DNA from: Rhodovarius crocodyli
GTDB lineage: Bacteria > Pseudomonadota > Alphaproteobacteria > Acetobacterales > Acetobacteraceae
Direction of reading: 5' to 3'
DNA: 64,000 nucleotides
NCBI RefSeq assembly: GCF_004005855.1
Contig: NZ_SACL01000004.1
Location: forward strand, 434,001-498,000
The notes beneath the pieces are model-generated. The model saw only the letters and a list, made by a program, of their open reading frames with translations, did no database searches and had not been told where the DNA came from. Positions 8,279 to 30,488 of the stretch are shown here, piece by piece; the first letter of the stretch is position 1; every line of letters starts with the position of its first letter. A program made the translations under genes and the position numbers.

Positions 8279-8354
8279 TTTTTACACGGTTTTGACCTTG
8301 CAATAATTCCTACGTTCTGTTACTTTGGAGGGGTTCGGAGGGCATTGCCCGACC

Positions 8355-8415
8355 TCAGCCGCGCCATCTCGGTGCGGCGCGCCCAGCCGGCGGCGTGTTT
8401 CGCCGGCGAAGAGGA
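8355..8415 (+). promoter_or_regulatory. Hairpin leader module 1 (type I)
   Basis: Hairpin A pairs 8358-8365 with 8371-8378; hairpin B pairs GCCGGCG (8386-8392) with CGCCGGC (8401-8407). The Shine-Dalgarno GAAGAGGA follows directly at 8408, eight bases before the ATG of the DUF932 gene. Confidence 0.7.
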
Positions 8416-8422
8416 CATACCA

Positions 8423-9610
8423 ATGCCCGACACCAACATCATGGACACGAACACCGGCCGCATCGGCGCACGCAGCGTCGATGTCAGCAGGGGCGCCCTG
8501 GACGGCTCTGTGAGCAGCCAGTGGTTCGCCCGGCCCGATGACCAGCGCTTCCTGACCCTCGAAGGCCTCTTGGCCTCCGTGGAGCAGCGCAGAGAGCGCA
8601 GCATCGTGAACACCCTCGACACCCGTTCCATCGGGGTGCGGGGCAGCAGGGAGGATGAAACCCTCCTGCAGCTCATCACCCCGGACGGGATGATCGCCCC
8701 CAACAACTGGTCCTTCGGCCAACTCTGCTCCCGCGTTGGCGCGCCTGCGGGCTTCCTGCGCACGCTTCGGCTGGCGCCGGCGGTCCTGCAGGAGCGTCTC
8801 GAGCGCTCGGATGCCGAGCAGCTGAAGTTCATGCGCACCATCAATCCCGACGGGACCGAGGTCGCTGAACTCCGCGCCGTCACCGGCGTGGATTATGGCC
8901 GGGTGTGGGACGAGGAGGTGGTTCGCGCTGTCATGGGCATCGCCAGCGATGGCACCTGGAAGGTTCCGGGCGTCATCAACTGGGGTAAGGGCACCTACGA
9001 CCCTTCGGCGCCGGTCAGCAGCGAGAGCACCACGCTCTACGCCTCGGACCGCGACGTGTTCATGTTCCTGTGCCGCGACGAGTACCCGATCGAGGTCGGG
9101 AAGCTCCGCAACGGCGACCCTGACTACATGTTCCCGGGCTTCATCGTCTCCAACTCGGAGACGGGATCCCGGGCGCTGACCATCGAGACGATGTATCTCC
9201 GCGCCGTCTGCATGAACCGCAACCTCTGGGGTGTGGAGAACAAGCAGACCGTCCGGATGCGTCACTCCAAGGGGCTGCCCTCCCGCTTCGCGGCGGAGGC
9301 CGGCCCCACCCTGCGCCAGTTCAGCCAGGCCTCCGCGTCCGCGGTCGCACAGAAGGTGATCGCGGCGAAGGGCACCATCATCGGCAAGGACGATGATGAG
9401 GTGAAGGATTTCATCCGGAAGCAGGACTTCAGCATCAAGTCGACCGAGCAAATCATGGCCTCGGTCTACGGTGAGGAAGGCCATCCGGCCCGGTCCGTGT
9501 GGGATGTCGTCCAAGGCATCACCGCGAAGGCCCGGGAGATCCGGCACCAGGATGAACGCGTGGACATGGAGCGCAAGGCCGGCGCGCTGATGAACAGGAT
9601 CAAGGTCTGA
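8423..9610 (+). CDS. DUF932 (phage/plasmid-like) protein, 395 aa
   Basis: The protein matches the DUF932 layout: an N-terminal region with YDYGRVWDEE-like text (VTGVDYGRVWDEEVV), VFMFLCRDEYPIEVG, GSRALTIETMYLRAVCMN, and a C-terminal helical part. Such proteins are widespread early genes on phages and plasmids and their biochemical role is unsettled. I chose MPDTNIMDTN because GAAGAGGA lies in front of it; the longer frame starts inside the operator. A strong terminator follows the stop. Confidence 0.8.
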   Translation: MPDTNIMDTNTGRIGARSVDVSRGALDGSVSSQWFARPDDQRFLTLEGLLASVEQRRERSIVNTLDTRSIGVRGSREDETLLQLITPDGMIAPNNWSFGQLCSRVGAPAGFLRTLRLAPAVLQERLERSDAEQLKFMRTINPDGTEVAELRAVTGVDYGRVWDEEVVRAVMGIASDGTWKVPGVINWGKGTYDPSAPVSSESTTLYASDRDVFMFLCRDEYPIEVGKLRNGDPDYMFPGFIVSNSETGSRALTIETMYLRAVCMNRNLWGVENKQTVRMRHSKGLPSRFAAEAGPTLRQFSQASASAVAQKVIAAKGTIIGKDDDEVKDFIRKQDFSIKSTEQIMASVYGEEGHPARSVWDVVQGITAKAREIRHQDERVDMERKAGALMNRIKV

Positions 9611-9616
9611 CACCCG

Positions 9617-9705
9617 GGCCCGGGGGCTTCACAGCTCCCGGGCCTTTCTCGTCACCCCATCACGGGGTGGCCCGCCGAGCGCCCCCGGATCGGGGCGCGA
9701 AAGGA
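9617..9705 (+). promoter_or_regulatory. Hairpin leader module 2 (type II) with terminator hairpin
   Basis: A terminator-like stem pairs 9617-9627 with 9634-9644 and is followed by TTTCTC. Hairpin A pairs CACCCC (9653-9658) with GGGGTG (9664-9669). Hairpin B pairs GCGCCCC (9679-9685) with GGGGCGC (9692-9698). The Shine-Dalgarno GAAAGGA is at 9699 and the ATG at 9714. Confidence 0.72.
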
Positions 9706-9713
9706 ATGCGACA

Positions 9714-10049
9714 ATGCAAACCGAACAGGAAACACCCGCGGCACCGGCAGAGCCGGAGACCGAGGCGAACCCCTACCGGTTCGAAATGAGCTTCCAGCCC
9801 GCACAGGCAGCCATCTATCTGCTCGCTCGGGTCGCCGATGGCGATTTCGTCGATTGCATCGAGGCCCGCGAGGCTCTCGCCCGCTGGAAGAGCTGTCTCG
9901 CCACGGAAGCCAACGCCGACGCCATCGAACAGCTGTCCTCCGACGAGGTGGAGTTCGACGACCATGGCGTTGCCGTGGTCGAGGCCGACGGCGGCTACTG
10001 GATACAGGGCTGGCTGTGGGTTGAGCAGGAGGCTGAGAATGCCGACTGA
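9714..10049 (+). CDS. Hypothetical acidic protein, 111 aa
   Basis: It is acidic with a disordered start (QTEQETPAAPAEPETEA) and a folded-looking remainder (FEMSFQPAQAAIYLLARVADGDF, YWIQGWLWVEQEAE). It is the first of five closely packed rightward genes sharing leader module 2. I recognise no family. Confidence 0.6.
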   Translation: MQTEQETPAAPAEPETEANPYRFEMSFQPAQAAIYLLARVADGDFVDCIEAREALARWKSCLATEANADAIEQLSSDEVEFDDHGVAVVEADGGYWIQGWLWVEQEAENAD

Positions 10050-10293
10050 CCTCACCGCCGAATGCCTGGCTGGCTACGACGCCCCGAAGGGCGCGGCCTG
10101 CCCCTATATGTTCAGCAGTTCATCCTGGCTCGCCTGGATGGCTGGCAGGCGGGTTGCCGGAATGTCCCGACCCACCGCGTGCCGATCCAGCCGCGGTTAC
10201 TCCGTCCGCATTAAAACCGCTGGCGGCTCTCAGGTACTCGTCGCCTTCGCGGGCCCGGACCTCACCGAGATCACGATGGACCGGGCGCCATGA
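10039..10293 (+). CDS. Hypothetical protein, 84 aa
   Basis: MPTDLTAECL starts 11 bases inside the preceding gene. The second half (GYSVRIKTAGGSQVLVAFAGPDLTEI) looks like a small beta-rich fold. It ends in a four-base ATGA overlap with the next gene. No family is recognised. Confidence 0.55.
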   Translation: MPTDLTAECLAGYDAPKGAACPYMFSSSSWLAWMAGRRVAGMSRPTACRSSRGYSVRIKTAGGSQVLVAFAGPDLTEITMDRAP

Positions 10294-10484
10294 AACGCGC
10301 CGACGCCCTCAATGCGATCCGCGCCGCCGGCGCACAAGGCGACCAGCAAGCGTTCATGCGGCTCTACGTCGAGAACCGCGTCAGCAAAAGTGCGGCTGAC
10401 GCTGCCTGGCGGGAGGGCCAGAATCTGGCCCGCTTCGTCAAACAGCGCGACGCCAAGGAGGTGTCTCGTGACCCAGTCGCCTGA
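10290..10484 (+). CDS. Hypothetical protein, 64 aa
   Basis: A short helical, basic protein (MKRADALNAIRAAGAQGDQQ...AWREGQNLARFVKQRDAK) coupled to the previous gene by an ATGA overlap. An AAGGAGG near its end serves as the ribosome site of the next gene. Confidence 0.5.
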   Translation: MKRADALNAIRAAGAQGDQQAFMRLYVENRVSKSAADAAWREGQNLARFVKQRDAKEVSRDPVA

Positions 10485-10683
10485 CCTCTCCACCGTCGCC
10501 ACCCGCACCCCGGCCACGACCTGGGACGGGAAGCACGACGTGCTCCCCTCCGCCCGGGCCCAGTTCCGGGGCAGCGATGTCCCGCCTGAGGCCTTCCGCG
10601 CTCCTGCCAACTTTGCGGCCAACGCCGCACTGGTCGGCCTGTGGAAGATCATCGGCGACTTCACGGTCCGGCACCGCCGCTGA
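10468..10683 (+). CDS. Hypothetical protein, 71 aa (GTG start)
   Basis: A perfect AAGGAGG (10455-10461) lies seven bases before the GTG, which overlaps the previous gene by 17 bases. The protein ends ANAALVGLWKIIGDFTVRHRR. No family is recognised; the ribosome site is the main support for the start. Confidence 0.55.
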   Translation: MTQSPDLSTVATRTPATTWDGKHDVLPSARAQFRGSDVPPEAFRAPANFAANAALVGLWKIIGDFTVRHRR

Positions 10684-10689
10684 CGTGAA

Positions 10690-10941
10690 ATGACGAGGCC
10701 CCCTATAGAGGTGCGCGTCACCCCATGGGTCAACGTCGAAGGAAACCCGCTCTGGCATGGCTCGCGTATCGCGGCTTACCGGATCTGGATCGAGTTCGAC
10801 GGACGCCACTGGTACCAGTGCCATGAGTGGGAAAACCGCCACGGCAACCGGGAGCGGTGGACCGACAGCTGGATCAACGGTCTCCGTGGCTTTCCGCCAC
10901 ATGCGACCGTCCCAGCCGCCAGCGATCCCCCGCCACCATAA
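10690..10941 (+). CDS. Hypothetical protein, 83 aa
   Basis: The protein is rich in tryptophan and tyrosine (VTPWVNVEGNPLWHG, YRIWIEFDGRHWYQCHEWEN) and probably beta-structured. It closes the five-gene cluster; its stop touches the terminator hairpin of leader module 3. Function is unknown. Confidence 0.55.
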   Translation: MTRPPIEVRVTPWVNVEGNPLWHGSRIAAYRIWIEFDGRHWYQCHEWENRHGNRERWTDSWINGLRGFPPHATVPAASDPPPP

Positions 10942-10943
10942 CC

Positions 10944-11027
10944 GCCGCCCCTCCGGGGGCGGCTCCTCCGTCGCCCCATCCTGGGGCGGCGCGCCCAGCC
11001 GGCGGCGTGTCTCGCCGGCGAAGAGGA
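10944..11027 (+). promoter_or_regulatory. Hairpin leader module 3 (type I)
   Basis: Stem T pairs 10944-10951 with 10956-10963; hairpin A pairs CGCCCC (10972-10977) with GGGGCG (10983-10988); hairpin B pairs 10998-11004 with 11013-11019. GAAGAGGA at 11020 precedes the ATG at 11036. Confidence 0.72.
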
Positions 11028-11035
11028 ACACCACC

Positions 11036-11461
11036 ATGCCGATCGCGAAGCGGTGCAGAAAATGCACAGGTTCGAATTGCGGTGCGGAAGCCACAGCAAA
11101 TTGGGATGTCGAGAGCCAAAGCTGGGTCCTGGGCACGCTCCACACCAACACCTGGTGTGACGCCTGCGAATACGATGACCCCGGTCTGGTCGATGTCGAA
11201 GTCAGCGAGAACCTGGTCGAGGACTTCCAGCTCGAGATCTGGCGCGGCGACGACAACGAAGGGCCCATCACCCGCATCGTTGTTGCCTGCGTGCTGTTCG
11301 ACCCGGAGGAAGCTGGCATCTCCTGCCCGAAGCACGTCTTCGAGGAGGAAGCCGACATCACCCGGCTGCTGACCATCGCCCGACAGAGCGAGCGCAGCGA
11401 CCCGTTCGACGACAAGCTCCCCAGCGACGAAGCCATCATCACGGCCGCGCTGAACCTCTGA
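11036..11461 (+). CDS. Hypothetical protein with N-terminal cysteine pairs, 141 aa
   Basis: The N-terminus has C-x2-C and further cysteines (CRKCTGSNCG, then CDACEYDD near residue 42), suggesting one zinc site made from paired knuckles. The remainder is acidic (LVDVEVSENLVEDFQLEIW, FEEEADITRLL). The start follows leader module 3. Possible roles include nucleic-acid or protein binding, but nothing is specific. Confidence 0.6.
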   Translation: MPIAKRCRKCTGSNCGAEATANWDVESQSWVLGTLHTNTWCDACEYDDPGLVDVEVSENLVEDFQLEIWRGDDNEGPITRIVVACVLFDPEEAGISCPKHVFEEEADITRLLTIARQSERSDPFDDKLPSDEAIITAALNL

Positions 11462-11464
11462 CCT

Positions 11465-11544
11465 GGGGCGGCCCTGCGCCGCCCCCCTCGTCGCCCCATC
11501 ATGGGGTGGCCCGCCGAGCACCCCCGGATTGGGGTGCGAAAGGA
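11465..11544 (+). promoter_or_regulatory. Hairpin leader module 4 (type II)
   Basis: Stem T pairs 11465-11472 with 11478-11485; hairpin A pairs CGCCCC (11492-11497) with GGGGTG (11503-11508). Hairpin B pairs GCACCCC (11518-11524) with GGGGTGC (11531-11537), an A-T pair where modules 2 and 5 have G-C. GAAAGGA at 11538 precedes the clamp ATG. Confidence 0.75.
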
Positions 11545-11552
11545 CCGAACCT

Positions 11553-12704
11553 ATGTTCGACAACGCTTTCAAGGACAATATCGTCGGCGCCGTGAGCTGC
11601 GATGCGCAGTTCCTCCGGGCGGCCTTGGATAAGGCCTTCCTGGCGGTGAATGCGAAGCTGAAGGTCCCTGCCCTGCACCATGTGCTGGTCAGGAACGACA
11701 AGCTCTACGCCACCGACATGGAGATGATGATCTTCGTCGATCTGCCCCCGGGCAGCTGCTCCGGCTCCGCGTTCCTGACTGACCCCGAGCGCCTCCTCGC
11801 CATCCTCAAGACTGCGGATGGCCGCATCACGGTCGAGGGCCGACGCCAGGATGTGAAGGACGGCGACGCCATCTGCTCCATCTTGGTGCGGGCCGGCGAT
11901 GCGTCGATCTGGTCACCCAGTTGCCCGGTGGAAGACTTCCCGGCGCTCGATCGTCTCAAGGAGGCGAAGGAGCGACTTACCCTCACGGCCGAGCAACTCG
12001 CGCTCGCCTTCAGCTGCGTCGCCCCGGCGATCAGCACTGAGGCAACCCGCTACTATCTGAACGGCATCTGCTTCGACATGAGGAGCGAGCCGGCGGGATT
12101 CACGATGGCGGCCACCGATGGCCACCGTCTCGCGACCTTCGACTTCCCTGTCGAGCCCAAGGTCGCCATGAAGCCCATCATCCCGAAGCTGGCCATCACG
12201 TCGCTGCAGAAGCTGCTCAAGGGCAGCCGCAGCGACGTGCTGCTGAAGATCGGCGACACAAGGGCAGAGTTCTCCTCTGCCGACTGGGCGCTGACGACGA
12301 AGCTCATCGACGGCAGCTTCCCCGAATACGGTCGGGTGGCTGCCACCAGCTTGGAAAGCAAGGGCACGGCCAATTGGGTCGTGTCCGCTGACAAGGCGGC
12401 CTTCGCCAGCACGCTGGCAAGGGTCCATATCCAGGGAAAAAGCGCCCCGGTGAAGCTCACCTCGTCCGGCGAGCTGGTCAGCGGCAATCAGGTTGATGGC
12501 CAGGCCAGCGCGCCCATCTCCGGCGCTCTTATCACGGGCGTCCCTCAGGATGTGGGCTTCAATGGGAAGTACTTCGCCGAGGCGCTGAAGAGCGCCCCGG
12601 GCGACCGTATCTCCCTTTTCTTCCAGGATCCGGGTGGGCCCTTCTTGCTGAAGGTGCCCGGCCGGGATGACTGGAGCACTACGCTCATGCCCCTGCGGTT
12701 GTGA
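11553..12704 (+). CDS. dnaN: DNA polymerase III beta subunit (sliding clamp), phage copy
   Basis: The 383-residue protein has the three-domain clamp plan: an N-terminal domain (LRAALDKAFLAVNAKL...LHHVLVRNDKLYATDMEM), a middle domain with AATDGHRLATFDFPV, which is the classic bacterial clamp signature, and IDGSFPEYGRV; the C-terminus ends TLMPLRL in place of the host MPMRL. It would encircle DNA and tether a polymerase, presumably host Pol III. The start MFDNAFK follows leader module 4; nine residues of upstream frame come from the leader. A phage-borne beta clamp is uncommon. Confidence 0.88.
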   Translation: MFDNAFKDNIVGAVSCDAQFLRAALDKAFLAVNAKLKVPALHHVLVRNDKLYATDMEMMIFVDLPPGSCSGSAFLTDPERLLAILKTADGRITVEGRRQDVKDGDAICSILVRAGDASIWSPSCPVEDFPALDRLKEAKERLTLTAEQLALAFSCVAPAISTEATRYYLNGICFDMRSEPAGFTMAATDGHRLATFDFPVEPKVAMKPIIPKLAITSLQKLLKGSRSDVLLKIGDTRAEFSSADWALTTKLIDGSFPEYGRVAATSLESKGTANWVVSADKAAFASTLARVHIQGKSAPVKLTSSGELVSGNQVDGQASAPISGALITGVPQDVGFNGKYFAEALKSAPGDRISLFFQDPGGPFLLKVPGRDDWSTTLMPLRL

Positions 12705-12710
12705 GCAACC

Positions 12711-12790
12711 GGCCGAGGGTCATCCCTCGGCCTCTCGTCGCCCCATCGCGGGGCGGCCCGCCGAGCGCCCCCGGATGGGGCGCGAAAGGA
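12711..12790 (+). promoter_or_regulatory. Hairpin leader module 5 (type II)
   Basis: Stem T pairs 12711-12719 with 12724-12732; hairpin A pairs CGCCCC (12739-12744) with GGGGCG (12750-12755); hairpin B pairs GCGCCCC (12765-12771) with GGGGCGC (12777-12783). GAAAGGA at 12784 precedes the ATG at 12798. Confidence 0.75.
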
Positions 12791-12797
12791 CAACCCC

Positions 12798-13301
12798 ATG
12801 CATCTTTCCGATGCCATCGCACTTGCGGTCGCGCAGCTGAAGGCTGAGCGCGAAATCGCGGTGGGCTGCTACTTCGCCCCCGGCGCATCCAGGGACGACC
12901 TGAGCAGCCTCGACGACACGGAGCGCGAGCATCTGGCCGGTCTCAATGCCGCTATCAGCGCGCTGGAAACGGCGTGGCCGGTGGCGGTCGAGAAGATCTC
13001 GGCCGGCGCCCACGCCATTGCTAGCCTGGCCGAGAGCCGGCTGGAGGACATGCACGCCGACGCCGAAAGCCGCCACGAGAAGCAGATTTTCCGCTGCACG
13101 AACTATGTGGCCGCAATCGACCGCGTGCGCGAGTTTCGCGCGGGGCTGGAGCACGTCATGCCCGACCCGCCGCTCTGGGACTACGATGTCCGGGACAGCC
13201 TTCGGCACCATGCCGAGGAACACGGCGTCGACCTGGAAGCAGCGATGACCGCTCACAGCGACACGGGTGAATGCCCGTGCTGCGCCAATCCATCAAAATA
13301 G
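12798..13301 (+). CDS. Hypothetical protein, 167 aa
   Basis: The protein is mostly helical (DAIALAVAQLKAEREIAVG, LAGLNAAISALETAWPVAVEKI, SLAESRLEDMHADAESRHEKQ) and ends with a cysteine cluster ECPCCANPSK that might bind metal. No family is recognised. Its stop lies in a small AAATAGG/CCTATTT hairpin (13296-13317) that leads into an AT-rich gap. Confidence 0.6.
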   Translation: MHLSDAIALAVAQLKAEREIAVGCYFAPGASRDDLSSLDDTEREHLAGLNAAISALETAWPVAVEKISAGAHAIASLAESRLEDMHADAESRHEKQIFRCTNYVAAIDRVREFRAGLEHVMPDPPLWDYDVRDSLRHHAEEHGVDLEAAMTAHSDTGECPCCANPSK

Positions 13302-13321
13302 GATCAAGAACCTATTTATAG

Positions 13322-13350
13322 TTGCAATCGTAGGTATTTATTGGTAATAT
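13322..13350 (+). promoter_or_regulatory. Sigma-70-type promoter of the exported 75-aa protein
   Basis: TTGCAA (13322-13327) is followed after exactly 17 bases by TAATAT (13345-13350). The surrounding 13,296-13,390 is far more AT-rich than the rest of the prophage, and no hairpin leader module is present here. Confidence 0.55.
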
Positions 13351-13397
13351 TACTTTGTTGGTGAGGAATTAACTTCATCGACATTGGAGAAATACCA

Positions 13398-13625
13398 ATG
13401 AAGATCGCACTTCCGGCCATTGTGGTATTGGTCGTGGCGGCTTCCCCGCCGGTCGCGCCGGCTCCGATCAAGAGCCTGGACGCGCTGATGGACGAGTTTT
13501 CCTCCGAGTTGGAGAAGCTCGCCCAGATCGAGGACGACGATGCCTTCATGCAAGCCGTCCTCAGCTACCTCTCCCCGCTGCCCGGTCCGCCGGCCAGCTT
13601 GGGGGTGCCCATCTACCCGATGTAG
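13398..13625 (+). CDS. Small exported protein, 75 aa
   Basis: Residues 1-22 (MKIALPAIVVLVVAASPPVAPA) read as a signal peptide with likely cleavage after an alanine; the mature part is acidic and helical (LDALMDEFSSELEKLAQIEDDD) and ends in a proline-rich tail. A GGAGAAA ribosome site precedes the ATG. It has its own promoter in AT-rich DNA, the pattern of a lysogenic-conversion (moron) gene. Target and function are unknown. Confidence 0.6.
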   Translation: MKIALPAIVVLVVAASPPVAPAPIKSLDALMDEFSSELEKLAQIEDDDAFMQAVLSYLSPLPGPPASLGVPIYPM

Positions 13626-13631
13626 CGCCCC

Positions 13632-13713
13632 ACCGCCCAGCTACTGGGCGGTCCTCCGTCACCCATCATGGGTGGCGCGCTCAGCCGGCGGCGCGTTTCG
13701 TCGGCGAAGAGGA
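13632..13713 (+). promoter_or_regulatory. Hairpin leader module 6 (type I)
   Basis: Stem T pairs 13632-13640 with 13644-13652; hairpin A pairs CACCC (13660-13664) with GGGTG (13670-13674); hairpin B pairs GCCGGCG (13684-13690) with CGTCGGC (13699-13705), keeping pairing through a G-U. GAAGAGGA at 13706 precedes the ATG at 13724. Confidence 0.72.
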
Positions 13714-13723
13714 ACCCCACCCT

Positions 13724-13846
13724 ATGGCACCCATCGCCATCCGCCTGGCCGGCATTGTCGGCCGTGCTGTCTGCGCCGCGGCCATCGCCGTCATTGTGAC
13801 CCGCAGCAGCCCCGCCCGCCGGCTGGCGCGGCGCGACAACACCTGA
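13724..13846 (+). CDS. 40-residue membrane peptide
   Basis: MAPIAIRLAG starts a single hydrophobic span (IVGRAVCAAAIAVIVT) followed by an arginine-rich tail (ARRLARRDNT), which predicts an outside-in topology with the basic tail in the cytosol. The start is fixed by leader module 6. No function is known. Confidence 0.55.
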   Translation: MAPIAIRLAGIVGRAVCAAAIAVIVTRSSPARRLARRDNT

Positions 13847-13849
13847 TCG

Positions 13850-14080
13850 AAGCCGCCTCGGGCGGCTGCCGCCCTCCCCCAGGGTGGCCCGTTGAGACAG
13901 GGCCTGGGCACTTCCCTACCCCAACCCAGGATAGACCCATCAGCGGCAACTGAGGGCCTTGCCGGCGCATGCACCCCCGTGCGCCTGGTAGGGCCCTCCC
14001 CGTCCGCGGCGCTCACGACGAGCGCCGCCCGCCGACGCCCCCGGTTGAGGGGCAGAAGACGCCCCGATCCGGGGATGGAG
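13850..14080 (+). promoter_or_regulatory. Divergent hairpin leader region (module 7)
   Basis: The 230-base gap holds several GC hairpins but no convincing gene: GCCGCC/GGCGGC near 13852, GCCTGGG/ACCCAGG around 13900-13930, GGCGCT (14008-14013) with AGCGCC (14021-14026), and GCCCC (14037-14041) with GGGGC (14049-14053), ending in a GGAG ribosome site at 14077. It looks like one degraded module followed by one divergent working copy. Confidence 0.45.
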
Positions 14081-14086
14081 ACATTC

Positions 14087-14377
14087 ATGGAACTCGTTCA
14101 TGACCTGATCGACCCTCGAGAGGTATATTCTCACATCGAGGATGACCGGGTTCGAGAAGCGTGCATCTACGGCCGCCGCAGTGATTACATCACCGTGCAC
14201 CGGCAGCGCACGCGCCTGTATGACGCCAGCATCGCCCATCAGAGGCGGCTGGCGAACGATCCGAGAGTTACGGTTGAGGAGCGGCGCATGCTCCTGGAAT
14301 ACACCCACTTCCTGCGGAATAATCTGCATGATCCGGACCTGTTCCTGCAGTTCTTGCGCCTCTTCTGGTTGACCTGA
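14087..14377 (+). CDS. Hypothetical protein, 96 aa
   Basis: The protein is highly charged and helical (DDRVREACIYGRRSDYITVHRQRTRLYD, VEERRMLLEYTHFLRNNLHDPDLFLQFL are its main segments). I prefer MELVHDLIDP over an ATG 12 bases earlier because TGGAG lies seven bases before it. No family is recognised. Confidence 0.55.
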   Translation: MELVHDLIDPREVYSHIEDDRVREACIYGRRSDYITVHRQRTRLYDASIAHQRRLANDPRVTVEERRMLLEYTHFLRNNLHDPDLFLQFLRLFWLT

Positions 14378-14382
14378 CTACC

Positions 14383-14460
14383 CCGCCCGGCCCCCTCCAC
14401 CGGGCGGCCTCAGCCACCCCCACGGGTGGCGCGTTCAGCGCGGACCACTGCGCGAAGAGG
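14383..14460 (+). promoter_or_regulatory. Hairpin leader module 8, without an obvious gene
   Basis: Stem T pairs CCGCCCGG (14383-14390) with CCGGGCGG (14400-14407); hairpin A pairs CCACCC (14414-14419) with GGGTGG (14424-14429); hairpin B is shortened to GCGC (14438-14441) and GCGC (14450-14453). GAAGAGG at 14454 is intact, yet no ATG, GTG or TTG follows at working distance. Confidence 0.6.
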
Positions 14461-14690
14461 CCTACCAGCGAACTCGAGCTGGCGTCGCTCCCCTATACTA
14501 TTCCATCACCAGGGTGAGTTCGGAGCCACCGGCCCCCTGCCCCAGCGAGGCAGGCGCCGCCGCGCACCGTAGCGCGCGGAGAAGGAAAGTCGCCTCGTTC
14601 TGGGCAGCCCGCATCCGTCGTGGACGGTCGCTCTGCAGAAAGCCCTGGAACCGCCGCTTGGCCGCGGCGCGCGAACGAGATCAATTGCCA
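14461..14690 (+). other. Gap with possible gene remnant or small RNA
   Basis: No confident gene lies here. A TATACT hexamer at about 14494-14499 could be a -10 box. A basic 59-codon frame opens at GTG 14514 and closes at the 14,690 stop, and the whole stretch ends at an intrinsic terminator. Options are a decayed gene behind leader module 8, a noncanonical start, or a roughly 200-base RNA. Confidence 0.3.
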
Positions 14691-14730
14691 TAGCCCCTGA
14701 GACCAGCCCGGTCTCAGGGGCTATTTGTCT
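14691..14730. terminator. Intrinsic terminator between rightward genes and cI-like gene
   Basis: A 13-base perfect stem (14692-14704 with 14710-14722, loop AGCCC) is followed by ATTTGTCTT. It ends rightward transcription; the stop codon of the convergent repressor gene lies inside the stem. Confidence 0.8.
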
Positions 14731-15476: not shown

Positions 15477-15484
15477 GTGTTTTC

Positions 15485-15498
15485 CACATAAAAATGTG
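15485..15498. promoter_or_regulatory. Operator palindrome, copy 3 (CACAT-AAAA-ATGTG)
   Basis: The site separates the cI-like and cro-like genes. A third half-site, ATGTG at 15475-15479, overlaps the repressor's own start codon and faces the palindrome, giving three alternating half-sites as expected for an autoregulated switch. Confidence 0.7.
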
Positions 15499-15511
15499 AT
15501 AGACCGGTGTG

Positions 15512-15787
15512 ATGCGACGCAATACCCCGACCGTCAGCGCCCTGCTGAAGCAGCTGGAGGACGAAGCCCTTGCAAGGGGCCTGTCCCGAGCCGAGCTCGC
15601 CGCCCAGGCCAACCTGCACGTCAACACCCTGCGGGGCTTCGGCCAGCAGAACGAGCCGCGACGGGGCGCGGGACGCACTCGCGTCAGGGAGCATCACTGG
15701 AATCCCACGCTGTCTACCATCCTGGCCATCGAGTCCGTATTGGTCCGAAAAGTGGTTCCGTCCTCTAAACCTGTGGTTAAAGCATAA
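15512..15787 (+). CDS. Cro-like HTH regulator, 91 aa
   Basis: Residues about 6-45 form a helix-turn-helix (LLKQLEDEALARGLSRAEL, AQANLHVNTLRGFG). Its divergent position across operator copy 3 from the repressor gene suggests the Cro role of opposing CI. A GTG three bases upstream could also start it. The Shine-Dalgarno sequence is poor, so a leaderless message from the switch promoter is possible. Confidence 0.6.
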   Translation: MRRNTPTVSALLKQLEDEALARGLSRAELAAQANLHVNTLRGFGQQNEPRRGAGRTRVREHHWNPTLSTILAIESVLVRKVVPSSKPVVKA

Positions 15788-15791
15788 CTCT

Positions 15792-16322
15792 GTGTCGGGT
15801 CCAGTCCGATTCAAGACAGGAGCCACTTTTCAGCCGCCCGGCGCGCCCGCGGCGCCGCGCCGGAAGCGTTCCTGGAACCGCCATCCTGAATCGGTGATGC
15901 AGTCGAACTGCGTGGAGATCTTCGACCGCGCGGTGCCGGCCGGCACTGCCTTCCTCTACGCGGTGCCGAACGGCGGGCGCCGCGACGGCCTCACAGGCGC
16001 CATCCTGAAGGCCGAGGGTGTGCGGGCCGGCGTGGCCGACCTGGTGCTGATGCTGCCCCGTGGCCGCAGCGTCTACATCGAGATGAAGGTGGGCGGCGGC
16101 CAGAGCATCAGCGGCGTGAAGGTGGCCAAGGGCTACCAGAGCGATACCCAGCAGGGCTTCCAGGCCACCGTGGAAGCCCTGGGCTTCCGCTACGTCATCT
16201 GCCGCTCGGAGGCGGAGTTCGAGGCGCTGCTGATCGAGGAGGGCGTGCCGCTGCGGTTCCGCACGCATGTCGCGGCACGCTCCTCGGCCAAGCCGAGAAG
16301 CTCATCGGCCGAGATGTCGTAG
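15792..16322 (+). CDS. VRR-NUC domain nuclease
   Basis: The domain is complete: PESVMQSNCVEIF, the PNGGRRDG loop, GVRAGVADLVLMLP with the catalytic aspartate, YIEMKVGGG with E-x-K, and the C-terminal GFRYVICRSEAEFEALL. VRR-NUC proteins are PD-(D/E)XK nucleases, often Holliday-junction or flap specific in phages. I chose the GTG at 15,792 because the conserved HPESVMQ stretch lies upstream of the first ATG (15,898). Its last 44 codons overlap the convergent HTH gene, which is unusual and may indicate a frayed C-terminus. Confidence 0.75.
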   Translation: MSGPVRFKTGATFQPPGAPAAPRRKRSWNRHPESVMQSNCVEIFDRAVPAGTAFLYAVPNGGRRDGLTGAILKAEGVRAGVADLVLMLPRGRSVYIEMKVGGGQSISGVKVAKGYQSDTQQGFQATVEALGFRYVICRSEAEFEALLIEEGVPLRFRTHVAARSSAKPRSSSAEMS

Positions 16323-16504
16323 ATCTCGCACAGGCGCCGGGTCTGCCAGGCGCTGGGCATGGTGCGTCCATCCTCCACCTTCCACATGGCGACATAGCTG
16401 ATCCCCAGGGCGGAGCCGACCTCCTTGAGGGACAGACCGCGCTTCTCGCGCAGCGCCCGTATCCTCGCGGCCAGTTCCGGCCAGGGGCTGCGTTTCGTGC
16501 TCAT
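16190..16504 (-). CDS. XRE-family HTH protein, 104 aa
   Basis: Residues 8-65 form a typical XRE domain (ARIRALREKRGLSLKEVG, GISYVAMWKVEDGRTMPS, LCEIYDISADELLGL). The tail after about residue 75 is serine/alanine-rich and overlaps the end of the VRR-NUC gene on the other strand. It is coupled by ATGA to the initiator gene, so it may regulate replication gene expression. Confidence 0.7.
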   Translation of the reverse strand: MSTKRSPWPELAARIRALREKRGLSLKEVGSALGISYVAMWKVEDGRTMPSAWQTRRLCEIYDISADELLGLAEERAATCVRNRSGTPSSISSASNSASERQMT

Positions 16505-17709
16505 GCCGCGTCTCCTTCGTCTGCTGCTGGTGCCGCCGCCGCGCGCGCCATGAAGCGCTCGAAGCTGGCCATGTCCGGGAAGCCGTAGGGGAGAACCTCG
16601 GTGCCAAGGTGAGGCTGCAGCACCTTGGCGACGCGCCGCAAGACGGCCGGGTCACGCTCCCCATCGAGATCCTTCGGCCACCACCCCTCGTACTCGGCCG
16701 CCGCGGCGACCTTCATGGCCTTCTGGATCGCCGCCCGCTGCTTGGGGGTCACGTCCCAGTTGCCGGTCTGCTTGGGCGCACCAGGCGGCAGCGCCTTCTC
16801 GGCTGCATGGGCGGCGAGCACTGCCCTCCGGAAGTAGCTGAAGCTCCCAGGGGCATCGCCGCCGAATGCGAGCTTCGACGCCGTCAACTCGCGGACAACC
16901 CGCTCAGCCGTGACCTCGCTGACGCCCTGGCTGAGCCAGTTGATGACCTCCCGGAAATTGTAGCCACCTGTGCCAGGGAAGCCCGCAATCCTCGCCAGCT
17001 TCTCCCCCAACACCGCTCCCCTTGCGGCCATCGCAGCAGCGGATTCAGGCTCCGGCCCTGGTGCCTCGCGCGCGGATAGTGATTCCCCTTCGGAGTCCTG
17101 AGGGGGTTGGTTAGGAGTTATCTTAAGGGGAGATATACCTACGCGCGCGTTGGAGCCCCGGTGGGCTTCTCCGTGGGATACGTTTTGGGTTTCGGTGGCT
17201 TTTCGGTGGGTATCGCCGTGGGATACGTTTTGGGTATCCGTGGGAATTGATTGGGTATCGGTGGGTTTCCCGTTTGGGTATCGGTGGGTTTCCGCTGTGT
17301 GAGCCACCGCCACCGTCCGATCTGACACGAGCCGCAACGCCGGCCGCGCGGGCGATCCATCTTTGCGAGGCCTCCCGCCCAGTTTGGCATTCGCACGCTG
17401 GGCGGCGAGCTTCCGCTCGCTGATGCCGTGGAACACCTCCACGCGATAGCGGCCGCCCTCGTCTCGGTGCAGCACCTCGGCATCCCAAAGCACCTTGCCA
17501 GCGGCATGCACTTCCGAGAGCAGGCACCCTGCCAGTTTGGCCATCGCCTCACGCGGCTCGGCGCCTTCCGGCAGCGGCAGCCAGCCGTCACCATCGGCAG
17601 CCAGGGCCAGCGACAGCCAGAGGCTGCGCGCCGCCAGCGGCAGCGCCCGCAGCGCGGCCTCCGAAGACAGCCGGGCTACCAAGGCCTGAGGGGAATTCGC
17701 GCGGGCCAT
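16501..17709 (-). CDS. Putative phage replication initiator (O-like) protein
   Basis: The 402-residue protein has an N-terminal winged-helix-like region (LRALPLAARSLWLSLALAADGDGWL, LAGCLLSEVHAAGKVLWDAEVL, YRVEVFHGISERK), a low-complexity middle (about residues 135-190) with a repeated TDTQNVSHG/TETQNVSHG motif, and a C-terminal domain (YNFREVINWLSQGVSEVTAERVV, ALKVAAAAEYEGWWPKDL-like). Gene order beside dnaB, plus iterons within its middle, mirrors lambda O with its internal origin. The role is inferred from this context, not from a firm family match. Confidence 0.6.
   Translation of the reverse strand: MARANSPQALVARLSSEAALRALPLAARSLWLSLALAADGDGWLPLPEGAEPREAMAKLAGCLLSEVHAAGKVLWDAEVLHRDEGGRYRVEVFHGISERKLAAQRANAKLGGRPRKDGSPARPALRLVSDRTVAVAHTAETHRYPNGKPTDTQSIPTDTQNVSHGDTHRKATETQNVSHGEAHRGSNARVGISPLKITPNQPPQDSEGESLSAREAPGPEPESAAAMAARGAVLGEKLARIAGFPGTGGYNFREVINWLSQGVSEVTAERVVRELTASKLAFGGDAPGSFSYFRRAVLAAHAAEKALPPGAPKQTGNWDVTPKQRAAIQKAMKVAAAAEYEGWWPKDLDGERDPAVLRRVAKVLQPHLGTEVLPYGFPDMASFERFMARAAAAPAADEGDAA
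17107..17293. repeat. Iteron array inside the initiator gene, candidate replication origin
   Basis: Seven copies of an 8-base core YSGTGGSR-like (CCGTGGGA or TCGGTGGG, one TCGGTGGC) start at 17171, 17192, 17203, 17216, 17238, 17258 and 17281, spaced 11-23 bases, near whole helical turns. Two longer 20-base repeats are perfect: 17171-17190 with 17216-17235, and 17251-17270 with 17274-17293. A relatively AT-rich stretch (17110-17142, with TTATCTTAAG and GATATAC) adjoins and could be the unwinding element. Confidence 0.6.
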
Positions 17710-19229
17710 CAGCCATCATCCTCTGGCAGGTCGAAGAAGGCTGTCGTCGTGTCCTCGAAGCCGACGGTCTGCTCGAAGGTCTTGCCCTGGCGGCTTTTCG
17801 GGCAGGAGATCAGGGCCTTGCCCTTCGCATCATCCCGCCGGATGCGCCATTCCGAATGGCGTAGCTGAAAGGCCGCATCGTCCTCGTTCAGCTTCCGGAG
17901 CGGCTCATTCCGCAGCAGGTAGTAGTGCTCGCGGTACAAGAACATGATGACGTCGGCGTCCTGCTCGATGGTCCCGGATTCACGCAGGTCCGACATCTGG
18001 AGGCGCTTCTCCTCGCGGCTGTCGACGCCACGGTTGACCTGGCTCAGGGCGACCACGGGCACTTTCAGATCCTTGGCCAGCCGCTTGATGGCCCGGGTGA
18101 TCTCGCCGATCGCTTCCGTGCGGCTGGCGGCCTTCTTTCCACCGATCGAAGGCGGCTCGGCCAGCTGCAGGTAGTCGATGAAAATGGCGTCGAGGCCGCC
18201 AGCCCGCTGAAACTGCCTGGCGCGTGAACGGATAGCCGCGATGGAGGAGCCCGCCTGCTGGTCCCAGTGGATTCCCATTGCGCGGAGCCGCCGGGCAGCA
18301 TCCTCGACTGCGATTTGATCCTTCCGGCTGCTCTTGAGGCTGCGTCGGCTCCCATCCTGGAACTCGATATAGCCGTCGATGATGAGCTCCGCCGGCAGCC
18401 CGGATTCCTGCGCGACCATGCGCTGGTATGTCTCGATCGCGTCCATTTCCAGGTTCGCGAAGTAAACTCGCTTTCCAGCGAGGCCGAGATTGCGCGCCAT
18501 CGTCGCGCCAAGCGCGCTCTTACCAGCGCTGGATGGGGCCGCGATCACGTAAACCCGGGTCGGCCGCAGCCCACCGAGCCTCCGGTCCAGAGAGCGGATG
18601 CCAGTCGAGAGCCCGACTACCTCCCCGGGCTCGAGCCTCATTACCGCGGCAATGTGGCTCATGAACTGGTCATAGACCTGCGAATTGGTCAGCTGGTTCT
18701 CCGCGCCCGCTTGCTGCGCGCCCAGCTGAACCACGGACGTGTCGAGCCCATCCAGGATCTCGCGCGCGGTGGGCCCATGGGGGTCATAGGCCGCCGCCGC
18801 GGCCAACTCGCACGCCTCGATGGTCTCTCGCCGAAGCGCCATGTCGACCACGATGCCAGCGTATTCTCGGATGTTCACCGCGCCCACCGTCGCGCTCAGC
18901 AGCGTGGCGAGGTAGCGGGCGCCACCGACATCCTCCAGGCCCTGCTCCGCCTCGAACAGACCCTTCAAAGTGATCGCGTCGGCAGCCTTTCCGGCGCGGA
19001 TGCGGTCAGCGATGGCTGCGTAGATCCGCGCGTGGGCGGCGTCGGCGAAGTGGTGGGCCTCCAGGATGTCGCCCACCCGGTCGAAGGCCCGGTTGTTCTG
19101 GAGAAGACCGCCCAGGACGGCCTGTTCGGCCTCCATACTGGCTGGCGGAAGGCGTAGCCCAAGCGTTGAGCCCGTAGGCTGGGAGGCATTTCCGAGAAGC
19201 GCGGCCCCAGGTCGCTGCTGCAGTGACAT
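17709..19229 (-). CDS. dnaB: Replicative DNA helicase DnaB
   Basis: The N-terminal domain (PPASMEAEQAVLGGLLQNNRAFDRV, DHF-like HHFADAAHARIY) and RecA-like C-terminal domain are both present: Walker A PSSAGKSALG, LEMD after the first core strands, Walker B IFIDYLQL, the VVALSQVNRGVDSREEKR sensor and DLRESGTIEQDADVIMFLYRE. It unwinds the fork 5' to 3'. The 506-residue length matches the family. It overlaps the initiator gene by one base (TGATG). The 434-base gap upstream contains operator copy 4. Confidence 0.93.
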   Translation of the reverse strand: MSLQQRPGAALLGNASQPTGSTLGLRLPPASMEAEQAVLGGLLQNNRAFDRVGDILEAHHFADAAHARIYAAIADRIRAGKAADAITLKGLFEAEQGLEDVGGARYLATLLSATVGAVNIREYAGIVVDMALRRETIEACELAAAAAYDPHGPTAREILDGLDTSVVQLGAQQAGAENQLTNSQVYDQFMSHIAAVMRLEPGEVVGLSTGIRSLDRRLGGLRPTRVYVIAAPSSAGKSALGATMARNLGLAGKRVYFANLEMDAIETYQRMVAQESGLPAELIIDGYIEFQDGSRRSLKSSRKDQIAVEDAARRLRAMGIHWDQQAGSSIAAIRSRARQFQRAGGLDAIFIDYLQLAEPPSIGGKKAASRTEAIGEITRAIKRLAKDLKVPVVALSQVNRGVDSREEKRLQMSDLRESGTIEQDADVIMFLYREHYYLLRNEPLRKLNEDDAAFQLRHSEWRIRRDDAKGKALISCPKSRQGKTFEQTVGFEDTTTAFFDLPEDDG

Positions 19230-19297
19230 GCGATTGAAATTCCCCGAAATCCAAGCGCTTTTGTTGGACAGCCGAGGTCGTCGCGGCTAAGGTTTGA

Positions 19298-19383
19298 GCG
19301 CGCCATCCCCGTTGGCGCCCACGCTGGCGGCACCACTGCCGCCGGATCGAACGCCTCCGCCGGCCAGGGCGGGGGCGTTTTCG
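19298..19383 (+). ncRNA. Candidate three-hairpin small RNA or leader
   Basis: TTGGAC (19264-19269) and CTAAGG (19287-19292) are 17 bases apart. Downstream, three stems follow: 19300-19305 with 19313-19318, 19326-19331 with 19338-19343, and 19350-19361 with 19368-19379, the last ending in TTTT. The same stems read on the other strand would lie in the 5' leader of dnaB mRNA, so direction is uncertain. Confidence 0.35.
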
Positions 19384-19474
19384 CTTCCGACCCCCAGACC
19401 ATACGCACCGCCTCTGATCGTCACAAGGCGAATCTCGAAATGCTGTGCATTCCGTGTGTTAACTCGTGGTATTT

Positions 19475-19488
19475 CACATTGTAATGTG
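19475..19488. promoter_or_regulatory. Operator palindrome, copy 4 (CACAT-TGTA-ATGTG)
   Basis: The site lies between divergent dnaB and the methyltransferase operon, about 245 bases before dnaB and 175 before the methyltransferase. It would let one repressor shut both replication and recombination directions. Confidence 0.65.
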
Positions 19489-19600
19489 TTATTGTTTTCT
19501 CAAGCCCTGGTAGGCTGACCGCACCTAGATCGCAAAATCTTGTGCCTGGAAGGCGTACCAAGGGCCGGGGCGGGAAGTTTGCCCTCCACCACTCCTCCGT

Positions 19601-19656
19601 CACCCCATCGCGGGGTGGCGCGCTCAGCCGGCGGCGCGTCTCGCCGGCGAAGAGGA
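19601..19656 (+). promoter_or_regulatory. Hairpin leader module 9 (type I)
   Basis: Hairpin A pairs CACCCC (19601-19606) with GGGGTG (19612-19617); hairpin B pairs GCCGGCG (19627-19633) with CGCCGGC (19642-19648). GAAGAGGA at 19649 precedes the ATG at 19664. There is no clear stem T, consistent with there being no gene directly upstream. Confidence 0.72.
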
Positions 19657-19663
19657 CCGAATC

Positions 19664-20407
19664 ATGAACTCCGATTCAATCCGTGACGTGCTGGAAACCA
19701 GCTCCTTCAACGGGGCCAACCTGGTCCTGCCCGGCACGCTCACGCGTTCGGAATACCAGGCGGTAAACAAGGCCATCGAGGCCGCTGGCGGCAAGTGGGA
19801 TAAGAAGGCCCGGGCGCACGTCTTCCCGAGGGATGCGCGCCAGGCTCTGGCGCCGGTACTCGCCGGGAGCGACCTGACCAAGCCACCGTCCCGGAAGAAA
19901 GAGCTTCAAGCCTTCTTCTCACCGCCCGGCGTGGTGGAGCGCGTTATCTCCCGCGCCGCCATCGGCCGGAGGGATCTGGTGCTGGAGCCCTCTGCCGGCC
20001 ACGGCGCCTTGGCGCTTGCCGCGCAGGCAGCCGGCGGCCGGGTCGAGTGTTGCGACATCGACAGCGACCACGTCGACGAGCTCCGCCGTCTCGGGCTCAA
20101 CGCCAGGATCTACGACTTCCTGAAACTGGCCCCGAACCCCGCTTATGACCGGGTGGTGATGAACCCTCCGTTCCGCAACCTGCAGGACGTGGATCACGTC
20201 ACCCATGCCCTCGGGTTTCTGAAGACCGGCTGCAGCCGCCTGGTGGCGGTGATGTCGCCAGGCTTCCAGTATCGGCAGACCAGGAAGGCGAAGGCCTTCA
20301 GAGAACTGCTGGCGAGCCGTAACAGCCTCGTGGAGACCTTGCCCGAGCAAAGCTTCAAGATCGCAGGCACCAGTGTTTCAACGCTGCTCGTGACCATCAC
20401 GGGCTGA
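19664..20407 (+). CDS. SAM-dependent DNA methyltransferase, probably N6-adenine
   Basis: Motif I is LVLEPSAGHGALA (about residue 105), CCDID binds the SAM ribose, and the catalytic NPPF lies near residue 167 (VVMNPPFRNLQD), the form used by amino-methyltransferases on adenine. An N-terminal module (LTRSEYQAVNKAIEAAGGKWDKK) recurs in phage and plasmid relatives. The 247-residue enzyme has no target-recognition domain that I can see, so the sequence specificity is open. It is the first rightward gene past dnaB. Confidence 0.8.
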   Translation: MNSDSIRDVLETSSFNGANLVLPGTLTRSEYQAVNKAIEAAGGKWDKKARAHVFPRDARQALAPVLAGSDLTKPPSRKKELQAFFSPPGVVERVISRAAIGRRDLVLEPSAGHGALALAAQAAGGRVECCDIDSDHVDELRRLGLNARIYDFLKLAPNPAYDRVVMNPPFRNLQDVDHVTHALGFLKTGCSRLVAVMSPGFQYRQTRKAKAFRELLASRNSLVETLPEQSFKIAGTSVSTLLVTITG

Positions 20408-20411
20408 ACTT

Positions 20412-20495
20412 CCGCCCGGCCTTGGCCGGGCGGCCCTCCGTCGCCCCGATGCGGGCGGCGCGCTCAGCCGGCGGCGCGTTTCGTCGGCGAAGAGG
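20412..20495 (+). promoter_or_regulatory. Hairpin leader module 10 (type I)
   Basis: Stem T pairs CCGCCCGGC (20412-20420) with GCCGGGCGG (20425-20433); hairpin A pairs CGCCC (20442-20446) with GGGCG (20453-20457); hairpin B pairs GCCGGCG (20467-20473) with CGTCGGC (20482-20488). GAAGAGG at 20489 precedes the ATG at 20505. Confidence 0.72.
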
Positions 20496-20504
20496 GAATA
20501 CCCA

Positions 20505-21104
20505 ATGAACACCGCAACCGCCCTGGGCGACGACATCGTCGTCTACCGAAGCGACCGGATGGTTGGCAGCAGGATGTCGCTGGACGACGCCCGCGCCAAT
20601 CTCCGGAGCGGCCTGCCAGGCGTCCTGGCGAGCCATATCGCGGCCTTTCACCCCGGCGCCGTCGTCGAATTCTGGACGGCACAGGGCGGCCGCCGATGGG
20701 TCGCCAACCTCACAGCCGACCTGGAGGGCTCGCCTCTGGAGCATTTCCAGAAACGAGCCCGGCCGATCACCACCTACATCCCAGATGCACCATGCGGCGA
20801 CTGCCGCGGCCCGGATCGCGAGGATATCGACCCCGACGACGATGACCCCGACGATGACGAGGATGGCCGCATGACTTTCTTCGATGTGCACATCAACGCG
20901 CAGGACATCATAGCCCCGCGCGCCATCCTCCGGATACGAGCCTACGACCATGACGACGCCAAGCGCCGCGTGCTCGAGAATTGGGGCGACTACGAGGAGG
21001 AGTGCTACGAGAACGCCATGGAGAGCGTCGAAATCCAATGCCAGGACGTCGAGTTCTCGGGTGACGAGGACATGATCGACGACATCCTCATGTCGGAGCA
21101 CTGA
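20505..21104 (+). CDS. Hypothetical very acidic protein, 199 aa
   Basis: A central run of aspartates (DREDIDPDDDDPDDDEDG, about 108-125) links an N-terminal part with LDDARANLRSGLPGVLASHIAAFHPG and a C-terminal part with LRIRAYDHDDAKRRVLENWGDYEEE. The acidity could mimic DNA, as in some phage anti-restriction proteins, but this is only a suggestion from charge. The start is fixed by leader module 10. Confidence 0.6.
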   Translation: MNTATALGDDIVVYRSDRMVGSRMSLDDARANLRSGLPGVLASHIAAFHPGAVVEFWTAQGGRRWVANLTADLEGSPLEHFQKRARPITTYIPDAPCGDCRGPDREDIDPDDDDPDDDEDGRMTFFDVHINAQDIIAPRAILRIRAYDHDDAKRRVLENWGDYEEECYENAMESVEIQCQDVEFSGDEDMIDDILMSEH

Positions 21105-21107
21105 AAC

Positions 21108-21183
21108 GCCGCCGGGCCAGCCCCGGCGGCATAGCCGCCCCACTACCTGCCAAGGCGGCCCGTCGATACGGCAGGACAGGAGA
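21108..21183 (+). promoter_or_regulatory. Hairpin leader module 11 (divergent)
   Basis: Stem T pairs GCCGCCGGG (21108-21116) with CCCGGCGGC (21122-21130). Two overlapping, mutually exclusive stems follow: GCCGCC (21134-21139) with GGCGGC (21154-21159), and CCTGCC (21146-21151) with GGCAGG (21170-21175). AGGAGA at 21178 is the ribosome site. Confidence 0.55.
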
Positions 21184-21189
21184 CAATCC

Positions 21190-21342
21190 ATCTCCATCAC
21201 AGAACCAGGCCTCTCCGGCCTGCAGAGCCTTCTTCCCGCCATCTGGGATGAGGCCATCGCCTGGGTCGCGCTCGCGGCCAGCCTTGGGATCGACATCGTC
21301 TTGCTGACGATCATCCCCTGGCTCCTGGGCCTGATCCGGTAA
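21190..21342 (+). CDS. 50-residue membrane protein with apparent ATC start
   Basis: The frame reads ISITEPGLSGLQSLLPAIW and continues as two hydrophobic stretches ending PWLLGLIR before TAA. AGGAGA lies six bases before an ATC codon, ideal spacing, while no ATG, GTG or TTG precedes in frame. Either ATC is a weak noncanonical start or a former ATG has mutated. A strong terminator follows immediately, so the gene closes this operon. Confidence 0.5.
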   Translation: MSITEPGLSGLQSLLPAIWDEAIAWVALAASLGIDIVLLTIIPWLLGLIR

Positions 21343-21345
21343 CCA

Positions 21346-28803: not shown

Positions 28804-29102
28804 GAGCCCAGACCCAGCGAAAGCCCAACGCCGCGCCGCCGGTCGAGCCCATAGGCACGCACATGACGCGCGAGGCCGCGGCCGCATACTTCGCCTCGCT
28901 CGGCTTCACGCATATCACCGTGGCCTCACTGCACGCGCTGGCGTCCAAGCCGGCGGCCGATGGCCCGCGCTACTTCAGGTTCGGCCGGCTGACCTATTAT
29001 TCGAAAGCGAGCCTGGACAGCTGGCTTCAAGGGCAGATCGAGAAGGCCGAGCAGAAGGCGGCCGAGAAGAATGCGCCTAAGAAGCGGGACCGGGCGGCTT
29101 AG
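28800..29102 (+). CDS. Excisionase-like DNA-binding protein, 100 aa
   Basis: The central part MTREAAAAYFASLGFTHITVASLHALASKPAADGPRYFRFG with a following TYYSKASLDSWL is the helix-turn-helix plus wing arrangement of AlpA/MerR-like excisionases. It is the last rightward gene and converges with the integrase gene (26-base overlap), the usual Xis position. It would bend attachment-site DNA to drive excision. Confidence 0.65.
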   Translation: MRAQTQRKPNAAPPVEPIGTHMTREAAAAYFASLGFTHITVASLHALASKPAADGPRYFRFGRLTYYSKASLDSWLQGQIEKAEQKAAEKNAPKKRDRAA

Positions 29103-30474: not shown

Positions 30475-30488
30475 TTCCAAGGCCCCCG

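Follow-up and report, generated by a model that had tools for sequence, protein, structure and literature searches.

Why should most separately started genes of one block in a Rhodovarius crocodyli prophage lie behind spacers that seem to fold in the same way? The question was raised by a 64,000-nucleotide stretch of this genome (contig NZ_SACL01000004.1, positions 434,001 to 498,000; hereafter the window, whose own numbering is used throughout), for which an initial annotation had described about ten alike spacers, each with two hairpins and a Shine-Dalgarno sequence (SD). We found nine full modules on this shared plan (M1-M6 and M8-M10) and three more divergent ones (M6b, M7 and M11), all on the + strand and spanning 8352-21166. 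The observation of repeated double-hairpin modules is confirmed.

From 5′ to 3′, a full module consists of a pyrimidine-rich strand, hairpin A (7-8 pairs), a 7-nucleotide linker, hairpin B (6-7 pairs) and an SD that follows without a gap; an ATG stands 7-11 nucleotides past the SD 7-mer in eight of the nine, M8 having none. Two types are interleaved along the genome. Type I modules (M1, M3, M6, M8, M9 and M10) have CCTC as the strand 5′ of hairpin A, the linker GCGYYCA, the SD GAAGAGG and a hairpin B of the form GCCGGCG/CGYCGGC, with the exception of M8 (GCGCGG/CTGCGC). In type II (M2, M4 and M5) the linker is CCGCCGA, the SD GAAAGGA and hairpin B GCRCCCC/GGGGYGC; the linker consensus over the 7 nucleotides is SCGYYSA. 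The SD abutting hairpin B, described earlier, holds in all nine full modules and the two hairpin B types in all but M8, whereas the ATCNN loop ascribed to hairpin A occurs in 7 of 12 hairpins A and not in the remaining ones. The divergent modules all keep hairpin A and the linker (CCGTTGA in M6b, CCGCCGA in M7 and CCGTCGA in M11), and M8, M6b and M11 have no ATG close downstream. In M5 alone (12732-12792), the best fold is one long hairpin in which the arms of A and B exchange partners; a bistable refolding as a shared feature was rejected, since it is not conserved and M2, by reading, would carry an A-C mismatch.

A strict structural scan combined pairing, linker length and the SD GAA(G)AGG, with settings picked after the modules had been seen. 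On the + strand of the window it recovered the nine full modules and nothing else; the - strand gave no match, nor did any of 10 shuffles (200-base blocks). A looser scan that required a start codon covered 219 loci (1.86 Mb), loci duplicating this prophage being excluded. The window gave nine matches, eight on the + strand and one on the - strand at the palindromic M5; the other 218 loci together gave 12 on two strands, and their shuffles 7 on one strand. A covariance model, which the initial annotation had proposed as a check, was built from the six type I copies (R1). It retrieved the three held-out type II modules at E values of 3.6e-8 to 3.3e-6 (Table 1), and at E≤0.01 its matches in the whole genome were nine places, all in the block at 8.35-21.2 kb. 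In the window, R1 missed M7 and M11 and found M6b only in part; weaker matches fell on the - strand of the module palindromes (21.7 bits at M2) and elsewhere (up to 18.7 bits).

Table 1. Modules and genes of the prophage block (window positions), followed by copies of the unrelated TGACGGG leader (positions in the locus named)
Feature	Class	Position	Strand	Setting or basis	R1 match	Use in R1
M1	type I	8352..8416	+	before DUF932 gene (ATG 8423)	85.8 bits, E 3.2e-20	training sequence
M2	type II	9643..9707	+	before gene 9714 and four closely packed genes	40.1 bits, E 3.6e-8	held out
M3	type I	10964..11028	+	before gene 11036	89.2 bits	training sequence
M4	type II	11485..11546	+	before sliding-clamp-like gene 11553	33.6 bits, E 1.8e-6	held out
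M5	type II	12732..12792	+	before gene 12798	32.6 bits, E 3.3e-6	held out
M6	type I	13652..13714	+	before 40-codon ORF at 13724	81.0 bits	training sequence
M6b	divergent	13868..13895	+	hairpin A (8 pairs) and linker CCGTTGA only	partial, 10.4 bits, E 2.4	
M7	divergent, type II-like, hairpin A of different sequence	14006..14086	+	before gene 14087	none	
M8	type I with different hairpin B	14407..14462	+	no ATG close behind	51.6 bits	training sequence
M9	type I	19593..19657	+	before methyltransferase-like gene 19664	90.8 bits	training sequence
M10	type I	20434..20497	+	before gene 20505	81.3 bits	training sequence
M11	divergent	21134..21166	+	hairpin A (6 pairs, long loop) and linker CCGTCGA only	none	
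DUF932 gene	DUF932 family protein	8423..9610	+	Pfam PF06067 E 6.6e-7, phrog_1362 E 6.9e-44		
Clamp gene	DNA polymerase III beta-clamp-like	11553..12704	+	Pfam and PHROGs		
Methyltransferase gene	DNA methyltransferase-like	19664..20407	+	profile-family match		
Integrase gene	integrase	29077..30507	-	beside tRNA-Thr (30609-30683)		
TGACGGG leader, L236		20063, 21431, 22531				
TGACGGG leader, L237		20066, 21551, 24873				
TGACGGG leader, L232		14962				
TGACGGG leader, L231		12727				
TGACGGG leader, L014 (two copies), L015, L017, L022						

The copies vary in a way that agrees with the earlier claim of a selected RNA fold beside translation starts: compensatory changes occur in both hairpins, wobble pairs are G-U and never A-C, and the modules keep one orientation with the SD abutting hairpin B. 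The pair changes listed in the initial annotation are all present, hairpin A pair 4 being A-T in M2, M6 and M9 and G-C in M3 and M5, hairpin B pair 3 being A-T in M4 and G-C in M2 and M5, and M6 and M10 retaining hairpin B through G-U. With arms set by hand, every cell was paired in hairpin A (92/92, 12 copies) and in hairpin B (67/67, 10 copies). The 13 non-Watson-Crick cells were all G-U (10 in A and 3 in B), with no A-C, and reading the opposite strand would turn these 13 into A-C mismatches; a sense-RNA fold is therefore favoured over a DNA palindrome. Drawn from few independent events, the G-U bias is a strong hint, short of proof.

We also set the fold against null models, with an alignment that had been fitted to the structure and copies that are few and related. 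In the six type I copies, 99.1% of cells were paired, and structures slid by 1-3 columns paired at most 63.6%; three pairs had changed on both sides (reached by 11 of 500 shuffles), and the covariation score was reached by none of 500. A tree null distributed the observed number of changes over a tree relating nine copies; with paired cells and compensated pairs taken together, the observed values were reached in 0 of 5000 simulations for hairpin B and in 1.1% for hairpin A. Single measures are weak. Further pair types on type I were reached by 115 of 500 shuffles; in the tree simulations of hairpin A, compensated pairs alone were reached in 10.7% and the best pair on its own, taken jointly, in 7.9%. 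As all the data come from one prophage, the copies are related by descent, which leaves the tests with little power.

The initial annotation had also counted a GC stem after the previous stop codon (T) as part of the module. In the 11 modules tested (all except M7), a perfect T stem (7-13 pairs, G-U allowed) lies between the previous stop and M2, M3, M4, M5, M6, M6b, M8, M10 and M11. At M1 and M9, each the first module of one of the two rightward blocks behind leftward genes, only wobble-rich stems (7 and 8 pairs) separated from the module are seen. Because the stem stands directly before the nine modules that follow rightward genes and not at M1 or M9, we read T as the 3′ end of the preceding gene, and it is best assigned to that gene. 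Simple scans of 8200-22000 called two promoter-like sites by consensus (1.6 expected), none of them in a module, and eight terminator-like sites (GC stem and T-run; 6.4 expected by shuffles), again none in a module. The contrary reading, that the stems are ordinary terminators with promoters downstream, is unsupported for hairpins A and B, since no such site was called in the modules.

All modules serve a single 12.8-kb block of non-structural (early) genes. By open reading frames, 10 rightward starts at 8.35-21.2 kb follow a gap of at least 40 nucleotides, and nine of them carry a module, the sole exception being the gene at 13399, behind an AT-rich gap. The four genes packed tightly after M2 lack modules. 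R1 gave no match at 21.4-29 kb at E up to 10, and neither R1 (E≤0.01) nor the structural scan found a module in the 70.5 kb left of the window, where terminase, portal and tail genes lie. The earlier term phage-wide was too broad, as the modules are confined to one non-structural block, with none among the structural genes to the left. The AT-rich gap before the open reading frame at 13399 (13302-13398) may have been inserted later, together with a promoter of its own.

The strand upstream of hairpin A could tie the two hairpins to the SD. Every type I module (six of six) has CCTC one base 5′ of hairpin A, where it can pair with the GAGG of the SD, which would make a three-way junction. CCTC belongs to the module, because it is present at M1 and M9, both without a touching T stem. 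The four inner CCTC/GAGG pairs are invariant and therefore give no evidence for or against closure; the outer pair is U-A in three modules, C-G in one and G-C in one (5 of 6 type I). By reading, the type II module M2 has a perfect CCTTTC (9643-9648)/GAAAGG pairing, and M5 five of six pairs. In silico replacement of CCTC freed GAGG in M1 (0.09 to 0.40), M3 (0.14 to 0.46) and M8 (0.03 to 0.36).

Several observations speak against such closure. The outer pair is mismatched in M1, and the tree null for this pair gave 3.5%; M4, by reading, has no good SD partner. In fold ensembles of eight modules, SD closure stood above shuffles only in M8 (5/200; the others 29-131/200). Replacement of CCTC barely freed GAGG in M6 (0.06 to 0.11) and M9 (0.27 to 0.34) and had no such effect in M10 (0.33 to 0.32). 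Since the ensembles were not clearly above shuffles and the effect of CCTC was uneven, closure of the SD by CCUC is put forward only as a hypothesis, plausible but uneven across modules.

Taken together, the layout and its variation suggest that the modules are probably phage-specific translation-initiation leaders, with translational control as the most likely role. That the same leader stands before most separately started genes of the block suggests a shared translational control point. Hairpins A and B would fold side by side in the mRNA of individually started early genes, B ending at the SD. Framing the ribosome-binding site alike before unrelated genes, they could allow one factor or condition to govern the whole set of genes; in type I, CCUC would pair with the SD and close the structure, and its opening would switch the genes on together. 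We infer three steps of this explanation: an effect on translation, control shared among the genes, and closure of the SD. On plasmids, some DUF932-family genes are preceded by a hairpin leader of an unrelated kind that likewise stops at the SD, which is a precedent for the layout.

A bolder form of translational control, which we offer tentatively, is a phage RNA regulon: the anti-SD strand would close the ribosome-binding site over the two-hairpin junction, and one trans-acting phage or host factor recognising the linker or the loops would open or lock all copies, setting the early programme by translation rather than transcription. Control by CsrA was considered and rejected: PF02599 had no match in the prophage's own genome (99.5% complete) and was present in 3 of 14 control genomes.

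Three other explanations were weighed. The first places the modules in RNA processing or stability, where T, A and B would be cut apart or would block exonucleases, giving each gene a stable mRNA with a clean 5′ end. The strong stems immediately 5′ of the SD would suit this role, as would the two or three stems per gap that result from T directly before nine modules with hairpin A at once after it; the linker, some loops and the SD-complementary CCUC are nevertheless conserved beyond the needs of mere stems, and we consider this account unlikely. That the modules are DNA operators or recombination boundaries, inverted repeats that bind a DNA protein or, as the initial annotation had suggested for a cassette boundary, let genes recombine, appears quite improbable. 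Gene turnover would fit the interleaving of types I and II and the resemblance of M8, M6b and M11 to modules with a lost gene. It is opposed by the single orientation, by changes in both arm halves while pairing stays, and by wobble pairs that are all G-U and never A-C; the integron attC core sites, GTTRRRY and RYYYAAC, were found in none of the 12 modules. Least probable is antitermination of the kind exerted by the put RNAs of HK022, two adjacent RNA hairpins that act in cis and are not known to be tied to an SD or repeated per gene: the modules likewise offer two adjacent sense-RNA hairpins right after a T stem in most gaps, and a nascent double hairpin might let polymerase pass the T stems of the next gaps, but it would have no need to abut SDs or to recur gene by gene in each gap, and no T stem was called as a terminator.

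No convincing copy of the module was found outside this prophage in the genomes and records searched. With Rfam 15, only four tRNAs in the window reached the gathering score, and 8200-22000 gave three matches at E up to 5, all far below it. Phage records (blastn) yielded one weak 35-base match; the single match among plasmid records covered 31 bases and fell in a chromosome-sized Klebsiella entry. Among viral contigs, the exact pattern matched two stretches, both from the contig of this prophage, and a looser pattern 29, of which two were its own and the other 27 scored at most 18.9 bits with R1. The contig concerned, IMGVR_UViG_2882837327_000005, shows matches at the same spacing and three proteins at 100% identity, and we regard it as the same prophage. 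In genome contigs there were at least 118 pattern stretches, 80 of which were scored with R1; the best reached 30.8 bits (L095, an Actinomadura contig), a single match inside open reading frames, and the next 26.6.

Genomes of the same family and order were searched with R1 under Infernal's stricter filters, which lose weak matches, in draws that partly overlap. At E≤0.01, 34 of 298 other family genomes were weakly matched (35 of 299 with the own genome; best outside, 39.1 bits), and of the 42 outside matches the 29 read by eye had no module layout and were judged chance. At E≤1e-6, one of 395 order genomes was matched, the own, and none of the 394 others. A prophage relative that would allow gene order to be compared was not found among the genomes and viral contigs searched. 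Portal relatives occurred in 10 of 396 other family genomes (35-43% identity), and in stretches from three portal-bearing genomes (G123, 120 kb; G032, 45 kb; G107, 80 kb) none of 19 window proteins had a match at E≤1e-4 (best 0.11). Viral contigs with both clamp and portal came down to the own contig, and those with DUF932 to one further contig, L012 (37% identity). In L012, a metagenomic viral contig, two adjacent hairpins were seen by eye upstream of the DUF932 relative (before 3712), of other sequence and far from the SD; L012 had no R1 match, no Rfam match and one unrelated repeat pair. Around DUF932 in phages Mae-JY30 and ZS04 there was no R1 match and at most one weak self-repeat. Our literature search on repeated stem-loop leaders in phages found nothing relevant, which does not mean that none has been described.

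The unrelated leader on plasmids has the form TGACGGG - inner hairpin - CCCGTC - GGAG, followed by ATG, with the stem ending at the SD. It precedes DUF932, ArdC, ParB and hypothetical genes on alphaproteobacterial plasmids of several genera and at other genome loci, with up to three copies within a 40-kb plasmid stretch (Table 1). Like the prophage modules, it is repeated, with a hairpin that ends at the SD, before DUF932 and other genes; unlike them, it is one bipartite hairpin of other sequence. It is not universal, standing before DUF932 in 4 of 10 further genome loci, and of three plasmid stretches with DUF932 two (L232 and L236) have it before this gene and one (L231) only before ParB. 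Fifty-seven places in 38 plasmid records were similar to one copy, and in an alignment 1 of 12 copies carried a C-G to T-A change in the outer stem. Rfam gave no match in the ten genome DUF932 loci (L014, L015, L017 and L022 among them). We know of no published name for this leader, the literature search near it having been limited.

As to the prophage setting, the integrase gene and the neighbouring tRNA-Thr are likely its right end, a position that we infer. Genes for terminase, portal, tape measure and tail fibres are found left of the window on the same contig, and the leftward genes include SSB and DnaB helicase. Five of eight tested genes downstream of modules matched no Pfam or PHROG family. 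After the orphan M8, the stretch 14462-14724 has no clear rightward open reading frame and ends in a strong terminator-like stem (14690-14724); it may represent an RNA gene or the remains of a decayed one. Inside the leftward open reading frame 16501-17709, GTGGGATACGTTTTGGG / GGGTATCGGTGGG recur in a tandem-like arrangement at 17150-17300.

Regulation in temperate phages is mostly regarded as transcriptional, and a folded leader that recurs at most separately started genes of an early block, with sense-strand covariation and the SD at its edge, would give a direct handle on shared translational control in a phage. The unrelated plasmid leader, which stands before certain DUF932 genes, hints that mobile elements may make wider use of repeated structured leaders. 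Mobile-element genes preceded by folded repeats are also described for the Frpo/ssi single-stranded DNA promoters of plasmid leading regions (PMC11541004). These carry -35 and -10 elements in folded DNA, unlike our modules, which had no promoter-like site in the consensus scan.

The initial annotation had mentioned start-associated repeats of mycobacteriophages without recognising the double-hairpin form among known ones. The placement is shared with those repeats; the double-hairpin form matches no Rfam family. The start-associated sequences (SAS) and extended SAS (ESAS) of cluster K mycobacteriophages occur in many copies per phage genome, nearly all in one orientation and limited to non-structural genes. 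They lie just before ATG starts, mostly after larger gaps, with an inverted repeat upstream of the SD-bearing repeat (PMC3203893). The modules likewise keep one orientation (+), are limited to the non-structural genes at 8.35-21.2 kb, and have an inverted repeat, hairpin B, abutting the SD in all nine full copies. They differ in having two hairpins, the second abutting the SD, where SAS/ESAS have one inverted repeat. By reading, they lack the 13-bp repeat GGGATAGGAGCCC, the consensus given in PMC3203893, and have GAAGAGG or GAAAGGA as SD. ESAS carry putative SigA-like promoters (PMC11373665), and in this too the modules differ, no promoter-like site having been called in them by the consensus scan. 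In our best reading, SAS/ESAS of cluster K mycobacteriophages are the nearest known kind, and the modules a variant with the same placement logic and another sequence.

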